64,000 bases of DNA from Paracrocinitomix mangrovi (GTDB taxonomy: Bacteria; Bacteroidota; Bacteroidia; Flavobacteriales_D; Crocinitomicaceae): NCBI RefSeq assembly GCF_019740355.2, contig NZ_CP091819.1, positions 1,984,001 through 2,048,000 of the forward strand. The letters are read 5' to 3'. Every line of letters starts with the position of its first letter. Position 1 is the stretch's first letter. Made by a program: the position numbers and the translations under genes. The notes beneath the pieces are model-generated. The model did not search any database. It was not told the DNA's origin and was given only the letters and a program-made list of their open reading frames with translations. Shown piece after piece: positions 17,797-24,451 of this stretch.

Positions 17797-18939
17797 ATGA
17801 AGCATATCATTCTCTTTTCAATAATAATTAGCACAAGCATAGTATTTGGGCAAAAAACTTTAACTGCTATTGACAAATGTGATGTTGGTGCTTTAGAAAA
17901 AGCAATAGCTGCGGGATATGATATAAATGAAAAATTCATGATCCCAATTGATGAAGGAGCTGATGAAATTGAAGCCAATTTATTGAGTTATGCTGTTCAC
18001 GGAGAATGTTTGGATGCAGTAAACTACCTCATTGAAAGAAAAGATCAATTGACAGATTTTGATTTGATATTGACAGAGGCTTTTATTTATAGTTTATCTG
18101 TAGGAAATGATGAAATAAGCTCAGTATTGTATGCTCAAAATCCCTTACCAAAAGGTATTTGCGATATCTGCCATGGAAACAATGCAATTATGGTGGCCGC
18201 TACTTATGGTAGAGAGGATTGGTACAACAAACTAAAAGATCAATCAGACTTATCATACATCAATCACAGTGGGGCAAATCTTGTTACAGCTGCATCATCA
18301 GGTTCAAGCCAAGCAATTTTGAAAGATGTATTGCAATCAACCAAACTTGATTTAAATAAAAAAGATAACGAAGGTTTAACACCTTTAGATTATGCAGCTT
18401 CAAACTCTGATAACAAGGAAGCATTTAATACACTTGTTAAATTTGGAGCAGACATTGAAAAAAGCTGGAACCTTTTGTATTGGTGGACCATGTATCCTGA
18501 TCTTGAACTTACTGAAGACATTATTAAAAAACGTAAGAATGATGTTTGGATGATTGATGAAGATGGAGATAATTGCCTGATGTTATTGAGTTATTTTTAT
18601 GTAGATTTTATTGAGAAAGACAAGAAATTTGAAAAGGTTTTATTGACCATTATCGACATCATGAAAGAAGGTTATGAAAATGGTGAAGGCAATTATGATT
18701 ATGTCAAAAGACTTTACTACAACAAAATCAATGTAAATTATTTAAACGCTATGTTATTGACAGATGATTACACTTCAGAATCTCCCATTTATCCTAAATA
18801 CCTTGAATTGTTGAGTGTAATATGTGAGAAAAACGATTTTTGTCCTGTATACAAAAAAGAGTACAAAAAGGCTTGTAAAATTTATGGTAAAGAGGTTGTG
18901 ACAGATTGGTATACCAAGTATAGCTTACCAATGGATTAA
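17797..18939 (+). CDS. Exported ankyrin-repeat protein
   Basis: A 380-residue protein with a signal peptide (MKHIILFSIIISTSIVFGQ) and ankyrin-like repeats. The clearest is around residues 185-220 (GLTPLDYAASNSDNKEAFNTLVKFGADIE), with others near residues 28-75 (NLLSYAVHGECLDAVNYLIE) and 125-165. A CDICHG motif lies between repeats. The last 130 residues have no recognisable domain. It is separated from the WD40-caspase gene by one base, so the two must be co-transcribed and are probably functionally paired, for example as substrate, inhibitor or adaptor. That pairing is inferred. Its stop codon abuts the stop codon of the convergent glyQS. Confidence 0.75.
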   Translation: MKHIILFSIIISTSIVFGQKTLTAIDKCDVGALEKAIAAGYDINEKFMIPIDEGADEIEANLLSYAVHGECLDAVNYLIERKDQLTDFDLILTEAFIYSLSVGNDEISSVLYAQNPLPKGICDICHGNNAIMVAATYGREDWYNKLKDQSDLSYINHSGANLVTAASSGSSQAILKDVLQSTKLDLNKKDNEGLTPLDYAASNSDNKEAFNTLVKFGADIEKSWNLLYWWTMYPDLELTEDIIKKRKNDVWMIDEDGDNCLMLLSYFYVDFIEKDKKFEKVLLTIIDIMKEGYENGEGNYDYVKRLYYNKINVNYLNAMLLTDDYTSESPIYPKYLELLSVICEKNDFCPVYKKEYKKACKIYGKEVVTDWYTKYSLPMD

Positions 18940-20493
18940 TTACCCTGCAACTGCGTCTTTAATCAGCAACTTCTTCATACTTACTTTCTCTCCAATTATC
19001 TTTTCTAATTGGTCTACAGAAACACGTTCTTGCTCCATTGTATCTCTATCTCTGATAGTAACAGTATTGTCTTCTAAAGTTTGATGATCTACCGTTACTG
19101 AAAACGGAGTACCTATAGCGTCTTGTCTTCTATATCTCTTACCAATCGAATCTTTCTCATCATATTGACAATTGAAATCTAACTTTAATCCATCAATTAT
19201 CTCTCTTGCTTTTTCCGGTAAACCATCTTTTTTAGTCAATGGCATTACTGCTACTTTGTATGGAGATAAAGCAGGAGGAATAGATAAAACTGTTCTTTGT
19301 GAACCATCTTCTAAAGTTTCCTCATTGTATGATGAAGCTAAAACCGCCAGGAACATTCTATCTAATCCAATAGACGTTTCTACCACAAACGGAATATATG
19401 ATTCATTGATTTCAGGATCAAAATATCTCAATTTTTTACCAGAAAACTCTTCGTGTTGTTTAAGGTCAAAATCAGTTCTTGAATGAATACCTTCTAACTC
19501 TTTAAATCCCATTGGAAAGTTGAATTCAATATCAGCAGCAGCATTTGCATAATGAGCTAATTTTAAATGATCATGAAATCTGTATTTATCATCTCCCAAA
19601 CCTAGAGATTTGTGCCAATTCATTCTGAACTCTTTCCAGTAATCATACCACTTCATCTCTTCTCCAGGACGTACAAAAAATTGCATTTCCATTTGCTCAA
19701 ACTCACGCATTCTGAAAATAAACTGTCTTGCTACAATCTCATTTCTGAAAGCTTTTCCAATTTGCGCAATTCCAAAAGGAATTTTCATTCTTCCTGATTT
19801 TTGTACGTTCAAGTAGTTTACAAAAATCCCCTGTGCCGTTTCAGGTCTTAAATAAATCTTAGCAGATTCTCCGGAAACAGAACCTAATTCAGTTGAGAAC
19901 ATCAAGTTAAATTGCTTAACATCTGTCCAGTTTTTTGAACCTGAAAGAGGACAAACAATCCCTAACTCTTCAATCAATTCTTTCACTGCCACCAAATCTT
20001 CTTTTTCAAGAGATTCCTTCATCCTTGCTTCAATAGATTTGATCTCTTCAACTCTTCTTAAAATATTGGGATTGGTTGCTCTAAACTGCTCTTCATCAAA
20101 AGAATCACCAAATCGTTTTTTTCCTTTCTCAACTTCTTTATCATTTTTTTGTTTGATCTTTTCAATGTGCTCTTCAATCAAAACATCAGCACGGTATCTT
20201 TTTTTAGAATCTTTATTGTCAATTAAAGGATCATTGAAAGCGTCAACATGACCTGAAGCCTTCCAGGTAGTTGGTTCCATAAAAATAGCAGCATCAATTC
20301 CGACAATATTCTCGTGCATATGAACCATTGCTTTCCACCAATATTCTTTGATGTTATTTTTCAATTCAGATCCTAGTTGACCGTAATCATAGGTTGCACT
20401 TAATCCGTCATAAATTTCAGAAGATGGAAATACAAATCCGTATTCTTTTGCATGTCCAATAATGTCTTTTAAATTATCTTCTTGTGTTGCCAT
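18940..20493 (-). CDS. glyQS: Glycine--tRNA ligase (alpha2 type)
   Basis: A 517-residue class II aminoacyl-tRNA synthetase of the dimeric bacterial/eukaryotic-like form. It charges tRNA-Gly. Visible are the N-terminal GFVFPSSEIYDGLSATYDYG (glycine-specific opening), motif 2 (IGKAFRNEI followed by FIFRMREFEQMEMQFFV), motif 3 (VVETSIGLDRMFLAVL) and a C-terminal anticodon-binding domain (PYKVAVMPLTKKDGLPEKA). The length is normal. A perfect -7 element (TATATTTG on the minus strand, 20513-20520) lies 19 bases before the ATG. Transcription diverges from the phhA leader. Confidence 0.95.
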   Translation of the reverse strand: MATQEDNLKDIIGHAKEYGFVFPSSEIYDGLSATYDYGQLGSELKNNIKEYWWKAMVHMHENIVGIDAAIFMEPTTWKASGHVDAFNDPLIDNKDSKKRYRADVLIEEHIEKIKQKNDKEVEKGKKRFGDSFDEEQFRATNPNILRRVEEIKSIEARMKESLEKEDLVAVKELIEELGIVCPLSGSKNWTDVKQFNLMFSTELGSVSGESAKIYLRPETAQGIFVNYLNVQKSGRMKIPFGIAQIGKAFRNEIVARQFIFRMREFEQMEMQFFVRPGEEMKWYDYWKEFRMNWHKSLGLGDDKYRFHDHLKLAHYANAAADIEFNFPMGFKELEGIHSRTDFDLKQHEEFSGKKLRYFDPEINESYIPFVVETSIGLDRMFLAVLASSYNEETLEDGSQRTVLSIPPALSPYKVAVMPLTKKDGLPEKAREIIDGLKLDFNCQYDEKDSIGKRYRRQDAIGTPFSVTVDHQTLEDNTVTIRDRDTMEQERVSVDQLEKIIGEKVSMKKLLIKDAVAG

Positions 20494-20512
20494 TTTGTTG
20501 AGAAATTTGCCA

Positions 20513-20520
20513 CAAATATA
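20513..20520 (-). promoter_or_regulatory. -7 element of glyQS
   Basis: On the minus strand this reads TATATTTG, a full match to TAnnTTTG, 19 bases upstream of the glyQS ATG. A TTG within the CAATTG palindrome (20546-20551) lies 25 bases upstream, which is rather far for a -33 element. Confidence 0.5.
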
Positions 20521-20548
20521 GGGCTTAATTTAGGCTTAATGCCACCAA

Positions 20549-20581
20549 TTGTTTTTTTTGGCACAAATATTTCTATATTTG
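20549..20581 (+). promoter_or_regulatory. Promoter of the phhA leader transcript
   Basis: TATATTTG at 20574-20581 is a full -7 match, with TTG at 20549-20551 22 bases upstream. The expected transcription start is near 20588, about 12 bases before the leader-peptide ATG at 20600. Confidence 0.5.
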
Positions 20582-20599
20582 ACGCGGTTGCATATAACT

Positions 20600-20665
20600 A
20601 TGAGAAATATCTCTATAAATAACACTTATTATTATTGGATGATCCCAAAGGGGTTGATCTTGTAA
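20600..20665 (+). CDS. Leader peptide with Tyr-Tyr-Tyr-Trp codons (attenuator of phhA)
   Basis: A 21-codon open frame starting MRNISINNTYYYWMIPKG and ending at TAA 20663-20665. It has three consecutive TAT (Tyr) codons and a TGG (Trp) codon at 20627-20638. It lies between a good promoter and an intrinsic terminator (20698-20727) and precedes the phenylalanine hydroxylase gene, whose product is tyrosine. The design is that of amino-acid leader peptides, whose translation senses charged tRNA. No homologue is known to me. The assignment rests on codon content, position and RNA pairing. TAT runs can occur by chance in AT-rich DNA. Confidence 0.6.
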   Translation: MRNISINNTYYYWMIPKGLIL

Positions 20666-20706
20666 TTTGTGTTATCGCTAAATATTAATTATGAAGGTCC
20701 TCCCCT
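20619..20706 (+). promoter_or_regulatory. Putative attenuator / antiterminator RNA structures of phhA
   Basis: Three mutually exclusive pairings are visible. ATAACAC (20619-20625) pairs with GTGTTAT (20669-20675) and encloses the Tyr codons. ATCCC (20642-20646) pairs with GGGGT (20650-20654) across an AAA loop. AGGGG (20649-20653) can instead pair with CCCCT (20702-20706), the left arm of the terminator. A ribosome stalled on the Tyr codons would cover ATCCC and free AGGGG to block the terminator. A ribosome reaching the stop codon would cover AGGGG and let the terminator form. Confidence 0.5.
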
Positions 20707-20727
20707 ATTTCGGGGAGGATTTTTTTT
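20698..20727 (+). terminator. Intrinsic terminator inside the phhA leader
   Basis: TCCTCCCC (20698-20705) and GGGGAGGA (20712-20719) form a perfect 8-bp GC-rich stem with loop TATTTC, followed by eight T (20720-20727). It lies 44 bases upstream of the phhA ATG on the same strand. No complete gene other than the short leader peptide precedes it, so it reads as an attenuator rather than an operon end. Confidence 0.88.
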
Positions 20728-20770
20728 GCAATTCATTCCCGTGATTTTGGAGGCTACTAAATTTTAGAAA

Positions 20771-21487
20771 ATGGAAGTAGCATTAAAACAACAAATGGAC
20801 AAATACACTCAAGAAGATTTTGTAGTGTGGAAGATGCTTTTTGAGCGTCAGGCTGAAAACTTAAAGCAAAAGGGGAGTCAGTGTTACTTGAATGCTTTGG
20901 AGGAAATGCAAGAGGTATTGAACAAGTCTATTATTCCAGATTTTAGAGCGATTAATTCCCATTTTTCAGGGAACACAGGATGGGAAATAGCAGTAGTTCC
21001 GGGATTGATTCCGGTAGCAGAATTTTTTACTTTGTTGGCAGAGAAAAAATTCTGTTCATCAACCTGGTTACGCAGTATGAAAAACCTAGATTACCTGGAG
21101 GAACCGGACATGTTTCATGACGTATTTGGTCATATTCCATTATTGAGTAATGATGTTTTTTCTGCTTTTGCGCATGAATTTGGACAAATGGGTTTAAAAC
21201 ACATCAACAATGAACAGGCATTAATTAAACTACAAAGATTGTACTGGTTCACTATTGAATTTGGAGTAATCATGGAGGAGCACGTCAAAGCTTATGGCGC
21301 AGGTATCATGTCATCATTTGGAGAAACTAATCGCATTGCCAACAGAGAATGTACTTTTCTTGAATTTGACATTGAAGCTATTCTGAACAAATCATTCAAA
21401 ACGGATGAAATGCAAGAAGAATACTTTGTAATTGAGTCATTAGATCAACTTTACAATAGTTTGGGGGAAGCTGAGCGATTTTTGTAA
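20771..21487 (+). CDS. phhA: Phenylalanine 4-monooxygenase (pterin-dependent)
   Basis: A 238-residue non-haem iron hydroxylase that converts L-phenylalanine to L-tyrosine with O2 and tetrahydropterin. The iron ligands of the family are visible: His116 and His121 in MFHDVFGHIPLL, and Glu163 in YWFTIEFGV. The protein consists of the catalytic core only, as in other bacterial forms. It lacks the N-terminal ACT regulatory domain of animal enzymes. Expression is probably controlled by the leader-peptide attenuator directly upstream. The pterin-recycling dehydratase (phhB) is at 26746. Tryptophan hydroxylase activity cannot be excluded by eye, but the context of PhhB and Tyr codons supports Phe. 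Confidence 0.92.
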   Translation: MEVALKQQMDKYTQEDFVVWKMLFERQAENLKQKGSQCYLNALEEMQEVLNKSIIPDFRAINSHFSGNTGWEIAVVPGLIPVAEFFTLLAEKKFCSSTWLRSMKNLDYLEEPDMFHDVFGHIPLLSNDVFSAFAHEFGQMGLKHINNEQALIKLQRLYWFTIEFGVIMEEHVKAYGAGIMSSFGETNRIANRECTFLEFDIEAILNKSFKTDEMQEEYFVIESLDQLYNSLGEAERFL

Positions 21488-21663
21488 AATTTCTGTTACA
21501 TATTGATCAGTAATTGGAGTGCGTGTGATATTTTTATCATTAAGCAACTGTATTTCAGTGAAATCCGTCATCTAAGTATAAAGTCTGACAATATTTACTT
21601 AAATTGTAGATAACGCATACTTAATAAACCTGTTACCTCAATATTTATCCCAAAAAACTAGCC

Positions 21664-21987
21664 ATGTTTAAAGCAGTCCTACTAATACTACTTCTTACTT
21701 CTTCCTTTTTATCTTTTTCACAAAGTCAGGAACAAGCTGAAGAAGAAGTTTTTCAACTTAAAAAATCTCTTGTATTAACAGTTGATTTTGAAGGTGTAGA
21801 TAAAGATACCCAAGGAGCTATTAAAGATGAGTTTATTGGGTACAAAGACAAAATGTATTCTGTAGAACTAAATGAAAAAACTGAAGTACTTAAGGTGGTT
21901 CATGTTTTGGAAATGCAGAAGAATGAGGCAATGGCGATTTTATTGAAATTTGGTATTGACGAATCAAGAGTAGTAAGTTATGAATAA
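21664..21987 (+). CDS. Small exported protein, unknown function
   Basis: 107 residues with a signal peptide (MFKAVLLILLLTSSFLSFSQ). The mature part (about 87 residues) alternates beta and helix (SLVLTVDFEGVDKDTQGAIKDEF ... VLKVVHVLEMQKNEAMAILLKFG, in parts). This recalls a ferredoxin-like beta-alpha-beta fold such as HMA domains, but without the CxxC metal motif. Its last eight bases overlap the start of the T9SS protein gene, so the two are translationally coupled. Function is not recognised. Confidence 0.7.
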   Translation: MFKAVLLILLLTSSFLSFSQSQEQAEEEVFQLKKSLVLTVDFEGVDKDTQGAIKDEFIGYKDKMYSVELNEKTEVLKVVHVLEMQKNEAMAILLKFGIDESRVVSYE

Positions 21988-24451
21988 GGCTATTAAAATA
22001 TTAGGCCTGAGCTTAGCTTTTCTTTTAGGTTCGGTTCAGACAACATTTTCTCAAGCAACTTGTGCAGGGGCCACTCCTTTGACTCCTGGATCAACACAAT
22101 GTGGAACCAATAGTTTTGCAGGATCTTTCCCAGACGGAAGTACAGCCCCATTGAATCCATGTAGTTCATCTTATAATGATGGTGAATATTGGTTTTCATA
22201 TACGGGTACGGGTCAGGCTTTACAATTAGATGTTTCAGGATTAACTGCAACATGGTCGGGGATTTTTGTTTTGGATAATTGTCCGGCATCATCACCAAAC
22301 TGTGTAGCCAGCCACACAAATGGAGGTTCAACAGCAAACTACTCAATTACTACTCCCGCTTTGACAAATGGAGCTACTTATTACATTGTTATTGCCAATT
22401 GGTCTTCACCTTACAGCACGGCGTTTTGTTTGGATGCAACAGTTACGGTTCCGCCGACACCACCAGCAAATGACGAATGTAGTGGAGCAATCAATGTTCC
22501 CGTAAACCCTGATTTTTCTTGTTCATCAGTTGCTTCAGGAACTATTAATCTGGCTACTGCATCTTCTCAAAACACAGCCTCTTGTGGTGGAACAGAAGAT
22601 GATGACGTTTGGTTTTCATTTACTGCAACCGGAACTACTCACACTATTGATTTAATTAATATCACAAATGGTACCACAGATTTGTATCACTCAGTATGGA
22701 CAGGAACTTGCCCTTCTCTTACAGTAGTTGCAGGATCGTGTAGTGACCCAAATTCATCAACATTAACAGGCTTAACTCCCGGAACAACTTATTACGTTCG
22801 TGTTTATTCATGGACATCAACCTCTGGTCAAACCACCGATTTTGATATTTGTATCGGTACACCGCCACCACCACCGGCTAATGACGAGTGTAGTGGCGCA
22901 ACACCTGTTACCGTAAATCCTGATCAAAATTGTGGATCCGTAACTCCTGGAACAATCGCCAGTGCAACAGCCTCAGCTCAAAATACTGCCTCTTGTGGTG
23001 GAACAGAAGATGATGATGTTTGGTTTTCATTTACAGCTACATCATCTCAACATTACATTGACCTTTTAAATATTACAGGAGGAACTACAGACTTATATCA
23101 CTCAGTTTGGGAAGGGACATGTCCGGCATTAACGCTGGTAACAGGATCATGTAGTGATCCTAACTCATCAACCGTTACCGGATTAACACCAGGAAACACT
23201 TATTATGTTCGTGTTTATTCATGGACATCCACAACAGGACAAACCTCTAGTTTTGACATTTGTATTGGAAGTGATCCTACACCAACTTGTACAGATGGAA
23301 TTCAAAATCAAGGCGAAACAGGTGTAGATTGCGGGGGACCTTGTCCTGCTTGCCCACCACCAAGTTGTGTTGATGGTATTCAAAATCAAAACGAAACAGG
23401 AATTGACTGCGGAGGTGTATGCCCAGTTTGTCCACCTCAATTAATTCCAACAGCTTGCGCCAATGTTTCATATACACTAACTACTCAATCAAGTGTTTCA
23501 TTCTATGATGACGGAGGACCTGGAGGGGACCCGTGTGCAGATGTTGCGGGATCAGGAAACTACTGTAACTGTAATTGCTTCACTACTGTCACTATTTGTG
23601 GAGCAGCAGGAGAATTTTTAGTAGCTCAGTTTTATGAATTTGCCATGTGGAACACAACATCAGGTTGGGATTGGATGAAGATTTATGATGGACCAAATAC
23701 CGCATCAACAGTATTGTACGATAACAGTGCTTCAGGACCAGATAACCCATTTGGAGATTGTGGAATTGGCTCAACCAACATGGAATTTTGTTCAACCGGT
23801 AATTGCCTAACGTTTGAATTCTGGGCAACATCCGTAGTAAACAGAGCAGGATGGGATGCATTAGTCACTTCAGTTATTGATCCATGTGTACTTCCGCTAC
23901 CAATAGAATTAGACAACTTAACCGCTACTTGTGGCAACGGTAAATCCATCATCAACTGGACAACTTACTCTGAACAGAATAACGATTTTTATACCATTGA
24001 ATCTAGCACAGATGGTGTGAATTATACTGCAGTTGGAAAAGTAGATGGAGCTGGTACTTCATCAAGCACTTTACAATACACATTTACGGATAAAAACCCT
24101 GAAATTGGTGTAAACTATTACAGATTAAGACAAACCGACTTTAACGGTAAGATTTCTTACTCTGACCCTGTTGCAGTAAATTGTGGAGAATCACTTTTTT
24201 CAATTTATCCAAACCCTACAGAAAACACCTTAAATGTGAGCGGATTGGGTAACTTGCCTGGAAATTATAAGTTTGAATTAACCGACATGTTAGGTAGAAT
24301 TCTTTACAGTTCAGAACATGTAACCATGGAAGACAATACTCAACCTTATGTGATTAAAGAATTCCAAGACTTTACTGAAGGAACATATATTCTTAGAGTT
24401 GTTGACGAATACGACAACTTAGTACAAATGGAGTATGTTGTGAAATTGTAA
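21980..24451 (+). CDS. T9SS-exported cell-surface repeat protein
   Basis: 823 residues with a signal peptide (ends near TTFSQA). Domains in order: a first jelly-roll-like module (25-155), two near-identical modules of 137 residues beginning PPANDECSGA and ending DICIG (about 158-431), two Cys-rich repeats with DGIQNQ.ETG.DCGG.CP.CP, a CUB-like domain (about 490-635) containing KIYDGPNTAS, and a fibronectin-like segment ending with the type IX sorting signal (SIYPNPTENTLNVSGL ... YILRVVDE). The protein should cross the outer membrane through T9SS and be attached to, or released from, the surface. Adhesion or a structural role is likely but unproven. It overlaps the preceding small exported gene by eight bases. 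Confidence 0.85.
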   Translation: MNKAIKILGLSLAFLLGSVQTTFSQATCAGATPLTPGSTQCGTNSFAGSFPDGSTAPLNPCSSSYNDGEYWFSYTGTGQALQLDVSGLTATWSGIFVLDNCPASSPNCVASHTNGGSTANYSITTPALTNGATYYIVIANWSSPYSTAFCLDATVTVPPTPPANDECSGAINVPVNPDFSCSSVASGTINLATASSQNTASCGGTEDDDVWFSFTATGTTHTIDLINITNGTTDLYHSVWTGTCPSLTVVAGSCSDPNSSTLTGLTPGTTYYVRVYSWTSTSGQTTDFDICIGTPPPPPANDECSGATPVTVNPDQNCGSVTPGTIASATASAQNTASCGGTEDDDVWFSFTATSSQHYIDLLNITGGTTDLYHSVWEGTCPALTLVTGSCSDPNSSTVTGLTPGNTYYVRVYSWTSTTGQTSSFDICIGSDPTPTCTDGIQNQGETGVDCGGPCPACPPPSCVDGIQNQNETGIDCGGVCPVCPPQLIPTACANVSYTLTTQSSVSFYDDGGPGGDPCADVAGSGNYCNCNCFTTVTICGAAGEFLVAQFYEFAMWNTTSGWDWMKIYDGPNTASTVLYDNSASGPDNPFGDCGIGSTNMEFCSTGNCLTFEFWATSVVNRAGWDALVTSVIDPCVLPLPIELDNLTATCGNGKSIINWTTYSEQNNDFYTIESSTDGVNYTAVGKVDGAGTSSSTLQYTFTDKNPEIGVNYYRLRQTDFNGKISYSDPVAVNCGESLFSIYPNPTENTLNVSGLGNLPGNYKFELTDMLGRILYSSEHVTMEDNTQPYVIKEFQDFTEGTYILRVVDEYDNLVQMEYVVKL
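22451..23272 (+). repeat. Two in-frame 411-bp direct repeats in the T9SS protein gene
   Basis: Units 22451-22861 and 22862-23272 encode the same 137-residue module. They share long stretches of nearly identical DNA, for example around AGCCTCTTGTGGTGGAACAG. The high DNA identity suggests a recent internal duplication. Confidence 0.85.

Follow-up and report, generated by a model that had tools for sequence, protein, structure and literature searches.

The window analyzed here is a stretch of 64,000 nucleotides of Paracrocinitomix mangrovi DNA, and the region under study lies between the divergent genes glyS and phhA, the latter coding for a predicted phenylalanine 4-hydroxylase (Table 1). The best solved relatives of the phhA product were phenylalanine-4-hydroxylases (E 4e-51), and its scores with the two best NCBIfam models of this enzyme were below the cut-offs (243.8 against 247 and 237.3 against 264.75 bits). 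The initial annotation of this region had described a -7 promoter element, a 21-codon frame with three consecutive Tyr codons and one Trp codon, the alternative pairings ATAACAC/GTGTTAT and AGGGG/CCCCT, and an 8-bp terminator with eight T, and had read them as an attenuator of phhA. All of these elements were found at the positions listed in Table 1; the terminator was confirmed by both sequence and folding, and the pairings were mutually exclusive in the predicted folds. Since glyS is transcribed in the opposite direction, the gene order suggests that the terminator is most simply a part of the phhA 5' leader.

Table 1. Features of the phhA locus, in window coordinates.
Feature	Position	Strand	Basis or remark
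glyS, glycine--tRNA ligase, divergent neighbor of phhA	18940..20493	-	Gene call and family model
-33 promoter element TTG	20549..20551	+	Sequence; 22-nt spacer to the -7 box
-7 promoter box TATATTTG (TAnnTTTG)	20574..20581	+	Identical in 4/4 genus members
Leader peptide ORF MRNISINNTYYYWMIPKGLIL, 21 codons	ATG 20600..TAA 20665	+	Sequence; Tyr leader at 78/200 distinct phhA loci
Outer protector stem, 5' arm ATAACAC	20619..20625	+	Pairs with 20669-20675; fold and locus-specificity test
Three Tyr codons TAT TAT TAT, putative sensor codons	20627..20635	+	Sequence; comparison across phhA loci
Trp codon of the leader ORF	20636..20638	+	Sequence
Arm 2, antiterminator 5' side: AGGGG (20649-20653) through GTAA at the stop codon	20649..20665	+	Permutation and folding
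Outer protector stem, 3' arm GTGTTAT	20669..20675	+	Fold and locus-specificity test
Arm 3, antiterminator 3' side: AATATTAATTA and TCCTCCCCT, overlapping the terminator 5' side	20681..20706	+	Folding, genus alignment
Intrinsic terminator, 8-bp stem, 6-nt loop, T8	20698..20727	+	Folding and sequence
phhA, phenylalanine 4-hydroxylase, 238 aa	20771..21487	+	PF00351, E 7.8e-41

Promoter, Leader Start, and Terminator

The TTG element was placed according to the consensus -33/-7 spacing, and the transcript was predicted to start at about position 20586, leaving a 5' UTR of 14 nt ahead of the ATG. The predicted promoter is of the Bacteroidota type; according to the Flavobacterium psychrophilum study (PMC9723704), the TAnnTTTG box is located at -12 to -5 from the start in that organism. 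In the comparative set described below, 62 of the 78 Tyr leaders had this box no more than 130 nt ahead of the Tyr run, as compared with 4 of 74 background stretches. We then analyzed the distance from the box to the start codon in the 61 Tyr leaders with a usable start, taking the most upstream in-frame start, which for the window is TTG 20588. The start codon was exactly 4 nt past the box, i.e., at the predicted +1, in 20 leaders, and 3-9 nt past it in 55. Because of these distances, many Tyr leaders would begin at the transcript start or within a few bases of it; leaderless mRNAs are given as only 5.5% in F. psychrophilum (PMC9723704). TTG 20588 was dropped as the start of the window leader because an in-frame stop follows it in the genus relative G001, and the ATG at 20600 was taken instead.

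The terminator stem is formed by TCCTCCCC (20698-20705) and GGGGAGGA (20712-20719), followed by eight T at 20720-20727. Its fold was predicted at -20.8 kcal/mol (z -4.49), a value equaled by none of 200 shuffles, and that of the leader RNA from 20588 to 20770 at -46.2 (z -3.05; equaled by one of 200). A simple terminator scan of positions 18000-24000 reported no terminator, we think because A-U and G-U pairs lengthen this stem into the T run. When both strands of the window were searched for frames of 8-45 codons with at least three Tyr within six codons and a strong terminator behind, the phhA leader was the sole Tyr-rich case, counted twice by the scan as two overlapping frames with one terminator.

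Conservation of the Tyr Leader among phhA Loci

To compare the region across genomes, we used 250 phhA loci, obtained from genus and family searches (30), named genomes (80), order and phylum searches (60), and upstream stretches (80). Seven with less than 200 nt upstream were dropped, and the remaining 243 corresponded to 200 distinct loci; the phylum-wide share was composed of 30 loci plus 26 short-type and 14 fused-type stretches, a part of 133 positive genomes. A leader was scored when a frame of 8-45 codons contained at least three Tyr within six codons and a terminator was present no more than 110 nt past the stop codon. With this rule, a Tyr leader with a terminator was found at 78 of the 200 distinct loci, and on the reverse strand at only one. 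The same rule applied to other residues gave, per 200 loci, 39 for Leu, 13 for Arg, 12 for Ser, 11 each for Ile and Thr, 10 for Asn, 9 for Phe, 8 for Lys, none for Trp, and no more than 4 for any other.

The window's own family had a Tyr leader at 35 of 39 phhA loci. By inspection, two of the misses carry shorter Tyr leaders (L006, FYY; L023, YY), L017 has no visible one, and L150 precedes a broken phhA. Elsewhere, the leader was found at all the loci of f4 (2/2), f11 (1/1), f15 (1/1), and the short-type f17 (3/3), and at single loci of f3 (1/5), f19 (1/5), and f9 (1/35). It was not found in f8 (1 locus), f10 (1), f13 (2), f18 (1), f20, f21, and f24 (3 each), in the short-type f35 (6), in the fused type (15), or at the 30 phylum loci, most of which have a longer N-terminus; taken together, the fused and long-N-terminal types had it at 0 of 45 loci. 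In total, 122 of the 200 loci were without a Tyr leader by the rule used; one family of the same order accounts for 34 of these, out of its 35 loci. Because of these per-family counts, the predicted leader is regarded as a trait of certain lineages within the Bacteroidota, patchily distributed. The initial annotation had tied its reading to Tyr codons conserved upstream of phhA in relatives and to covarying stems; the former were found here, and so were the latter, as described in the next section.

Several records deserve a comment of their own. At L149 (G090:C17), the Tyr leader and the terminator are retained ahead of a phhA broken by stops and frame changes. Record CP034120.1 (L093/L145), titled Glaciecola amylolytica, has the same phhA leader locus as the family genome G095, and the title looks wrong. 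Similarly, the phhA upstream region of L070, a metagenome-assembled contig titled Actinomyces viscosus, is the same as that of the family genome G102, and this contig is probably mislabeled or misbinned. In addition, the terminators of many loci (e.g., L010, L016, and L056) are often like CCCGGTTC..GAATCGGGC, resembling the T-arm stem of a tRNA.

With regard to the amino acid that may be sensed, the leader peptides of the four genus members, MRNISINNTYYYWMIPKGLIL, MRIISLNITYYYWTIPPGTES, MILLTSNNYYYWTTCKGTV, and MNSISLHSTYYYWTLPDGTV (the last taken from the second ATG of its locus), all contain YYYW. Nonetheless, a Trp in or adjoining the Tyr run was present in only 11 of the 78 leaders, 7 of these being outside the window's genus, and none of the 200 distinct loci showed three Trp in six codons; the possibility of a tryptophan leader was thus rejected on these counts. 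Judged from the codons, Tyr alone is most likely the signal, and not Tyr together with Trp. The former label of a Tyr/Trp-codon leader holds for the conserved Tyr run but probably not for Trp as a signal. The codon identity fits the pathway product, since the Tyr codons stand ahead of a phenylalanine hydroxylase gene. Outside the Tyr run, the peptides vary widely among loci; the longest run is of six Tyr (L083), and Thr often precedes it.

Competing Pairings in the Leader RNA

In the window, AGGGG at the 5' end of arm 2 has CCCCT at 20702-20706 as its partner, and the AATATTAATTA segment of arm 3 (20681-20691) is identical in the four genus members. The antiterminator pairs of these four, AGGGG/CCCCT, CGGGAAC/GTTCCCG, GGGAAC/GTTCCT, and GACGGG/CCCGTC, differ with both sides changing together. 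RNAalifold analysis of the same sequences gave a covariation term of almost nil (0.25), which is small because the arms shift between alignment columns. The consensus fold of the genus has the Tyr/Trp codon stretch (arm 1) paired with the GTAAT located at the stop codon, and AATATTAATTA pairs with the same GTAAT in the predicted antiterminators; we read this shared pairing as a likely competition among arms 1, 2, and 3.

Next, the fit of arm 2 to the terminator arm of its own locus was compared with the fit after permutation among loci. The mean for the 78 loci was 17.2, versus at most 15.5 in 2000 permutations, and it was 16.6 versus at most 15.1 when only the 58 distinct arms were included; these permutation counts are not equivalent to independent probabilities because the loci have a common ancestry and arm 3 is complementary to arms 2 and 4 alike. 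Far-upstream DNA, used as a negative control, showed no excess, with 794 of 2000 permutations matching its own value. When the single bases of arm 2 were shuffled, only 50 of the 78 loci were at or above their own 95th percentile. The outer stem around the Tyr codons was also locus-specific (0/2000 permutations). This excess and the paired changes within the genus constitute the covarying, competing stems referred to above. Moreover, in 66 of the 78 loci, the pairing of arm 2 begins 11-17 nt past the last Tyr codon, a distance of about one ribosome footprint.

Folds were also predicted with the ribosome at defined positions; these are equilibrium predictions and not kinetics. With a ribosome on the Tyr codons and before arm 4 is made, arms 2 and 3 paired, with at least five pairs, in 76 of the 78 loci; the same fold with a shuffled arm 2 gave a mean of 46 and a maximum of 54 in 20 rounds, the control itself being high. 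In the naked RNA before arm 4, an antiterminator was predicted in 21 of the 78, the window locus among them, and for this locus the model is, therefore, against a full protection of arm 2. When the ribosome was set at the stop codon, all 78 loci folded the terminator, although terminators were a criterion for selecting the loci. For the window, the predicted stability of the antiterminator (-20.7) was equal to that of the terminator (-20.8).

Tyrosine Synthesis and Sister Leaders in the Family

Prephenate dehydrogenase (TyrA, PF02153) was not found in the window's own genome, and only 3 of 150 family genomes had a match over the cut-off. Prephenate dehydratase (PF00800) was also not found there; it was present in 22 of the 150 family genomes, including G001 and G002 from among the three further members of the genus. 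Chorismate synthase is present in the own genome. Because neither the dehydrogenase nor the dehydratase was detected, PhhA is predicted to be the only route to tyrosine in this strain, which is also predicted to need external phenylalanine, with the proviso that enzymes unrelated to the searched families are possible. The initial annotation contrasted control of a hydroxylase with that of a biosynthetic operon. It is indeed a hydroxylase that would be controlled, but the contrast probably does not hold, since for the same reason the hydroxylase is likely to be the biosynthetic enzyme here. The idea that Tyr leaders occur only where TyrA is missing failed in its strict form, as TyrA was over the cut-off in three (G170, G409, and G699) of the nine leader-bearing genomes scored outside the family; a tenth, G226, was left out.

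An RNA covariance model was built from 47 of the 78 Tyr leaders, all ahead of phhA, and run on 60 family genomes. The best matches were phhA leaders, and among 20 other matches fetched, 10 were leaders. Seven of them have a His run and a terminator ahead of hisG (L253-L257, L261, and L271; e.g., MKMNNTHHHHVNAQRAW, with HHHH), and several of these share an M..NNT lead-in; hisG is partial on the contig of L253 and represented by its first codons only at L255. The others, at the ilvE, asnA, and prephenate dehydratase loci L258, L264, and L265, are an Ile-rich frame ahead of ilvE, MKINNTYFFFNNNYMT (FFF/NNN) ahead of asnA, and MKKMNNFFFYDFHWRD (FFF) ahead of a prephenate dehydratase gene. For the asnA leader, the presence of FFF as well makes the assignment to Asn tentative. 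The downstream genes were named by family models at one locus each, and at two for hisG, the other hisG genes being recognized by eye. The ten remaining matches, of which four are in the own genome, resemble ordinary terminators. In the own genome, where further Tyr leaders were looked for with the model, there were five matches with E values of 0.1 or less, with phhA the best; the four others follow the ends of longer frames, are terminator-like, and were not accepted as further Tyr leaders, though such leaders are possible given the stricter filters of this search and a model made from phhA leaders only.

Discussion

Sequence comparison shows the leader frame, the terminator, the mutually exclusive pairings, their spacing, and their conservation. 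The phhA leader is very probably a tyrosine-sensing, ribosome-mediated attenuator of transcription, and the comparative tests lend support to the reading first proposed. We infer that the leader is translated, that the ribosome stalls within it, that tRNA charging is the signal, and that expression responds in the following direction. RNA polymerase would start at about 20586, and a trailing ribosome would translate the 21-codon leader. With Tyr-tRNA charged, the ribosome would reach the stop codon and mask arm 2, so that the terminator arms could pair and transcription would stop ahead of phhA. With Tyr-tRNA scarce, it would stall on the Tyr codons and leave arm 2 (AGGGG to GUAA) free; this arm would pair with arm 3 (AAUUAUGAAGGUCCUCCCCU) ahead of the synthesis of arm 4, no terminator would form, and phhA would be transcribed. 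PhhA would then convert phenylalanine to tyrosine. When there is no translation, the protector stems (ATAACAC/GTGTTAT and Tyr codons/GTAAT) might restrain arm 2.

Other explanations were considered. The strongest of them, itself compatible with attenuation and still unlikely, is that the same switch serves mainly phenylalanine catabolism, halting conversion of this amino acid when tyrosine, which feeds the homogentisate pathway, is abundant. The presence of 4-hydroxyphenylpyruvate dioxygenase in the own genome leaves room for a catabolic use of PhhA, and 58 of 60 family genomes scored above the cut-off for this dioxygenase; yet the level of a catabolic enzyme should increase with its substrate instead of falling with its product, and the scarcity of TyrA in the family also argues against this purpose. 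Rather less probable is that the leader encodes an arrest peptide, with the switch reading the peptide, under free tyrosine or another ligand, and not the charging of Tyr-tRNA. The long runs seen in places, such as that of L083, and the frequent Thr before them would suit an arrest peptide, whereas the wide divergence of the peptides outside the run would not, and in the sister leaders His, Phe, or Ile codons replace Tyr ahead of matching genes, as predicted for tRNA charging.

A T-box, or another riboswitch reading tyrosine or tRNA-Tyr directly, would give the same output, a choice between terminator and antiterminator. We consider it very improbable: no Rfam family reached its gathering score in the window, and T-boxes in particular gave no match at the leader at E up to 5. 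The weak Rfam matches there, PyrR (26.1 bits, cut-off 54) and Phe_leader (RF01859; 22.3 bits, cut-off 55), were far below the cut-offs, none was a T-box, and both were rejected as the identity of the element. Finally, a Tyr-rich frame could lie by chance ahead of an ordinary or unrelated terminator, as TAT runs are cheap in AT-rich DNA and Leu-rich frames were found by the same rule at 39 of the 200 loci. The near absence of Tyr leaders on the reverse strand, the lack of a second case in the 64-kb window, and the locus-specific pairing contradict this explanation, which was rejected as having next to no probability.

Ribosome-mediated attenuation is a classical mechanism, and the Phe leader attenuators of pheA and pheST (RF01859) carry a run of aromatic codons, competing hairpins, and a terminator ahead of the gene. 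The phhA leader is like them in these three respects and differs in having Tyr instead of Phe codons, in its proposed control of a pterin-dependent hydroxylase, and in its low score with that family. The claim of a new regulatory system was, therefore, too strong: the mechanism is a known one, and "strong clues" for leader-peptide attenuation before amino-acid operons have been reported in F. psychrophilum, a member of the same phylum with the same promoter type (PMC9723704), although the available part of that report mentions neither phhA nor Tyr. A putative attenuator is listed upstream of pheA>hisHb>aroAI-aroQ>tyrA in Bacteroides thetaiotaomicron (Merino database, Table 7, PMC1173090); it likewise concerns tyrosine synthesis in the Bacteroidota, but through the chorismate route and not phhA, and is given there as putative. 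Short frames reminiscent of leader peptides have also been described in the long 5' UTRs of this organism (PMC7366714). The polycysteine leaderless short ORFs of mycobacteria, as covered in a review (PMC9031893), resemble the Tyr leaders as leaderless or nearly leaderless sensor ORFs with a codon run, in line with the 20 of 61 that start at +1; they differ in the amino acid and the phylum, and the window leader has a 5' UTR of about 14 nt. The same enzyme is controlled in Pseudomonas, where phhABC is activated by PhhR (PMC1173090), described in that source as a sigma-54-dependent activator protein of a catabolic operon, in contrast to the cis-acting RNA element of the window, predicted to be off with Tyr. 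A literature search that left most subscription journals outside brought up no description of a leader with Tyr codons ahead of a phenylalanine hydroxylase gene. The new part is a predicted tyrosine-specific attenuator at phhA within the known class of ribosome-mediated attenuators.

A broader proposal, to which we give about even chances, is that Bacteroidota use short, frequently leaderless leader ORFs belonging to a single modular class. In this class, the codon run would vary with the downstream gene, being Tyr at phhA, His at hisG, Phe at the prephenate dehydratase gene, Ile at ilvE, and Asn at asnA, and the surrounding frame, often M..NNT-run, and the RNA switch would be alike; the Tyr member would mark phenylalanine hydroxylase as a tyrosine-making enzyme in lineages where the chorismate route to tyrosine was lost. 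For the biology of these bacteria, the conserved leader leads to the prediction that, in part of the Bacteroidota, phenylalanine hydroxylase is governed by the supply of tyrosine and not by the breakdown of phenylalanine, and that some of these bacteria obtain tyrosine by hydroxylation of phenylalanine in place of the usual pathway; it also provides a set of candidate Bacteroidota peptide attenuators that are now open to direct test.
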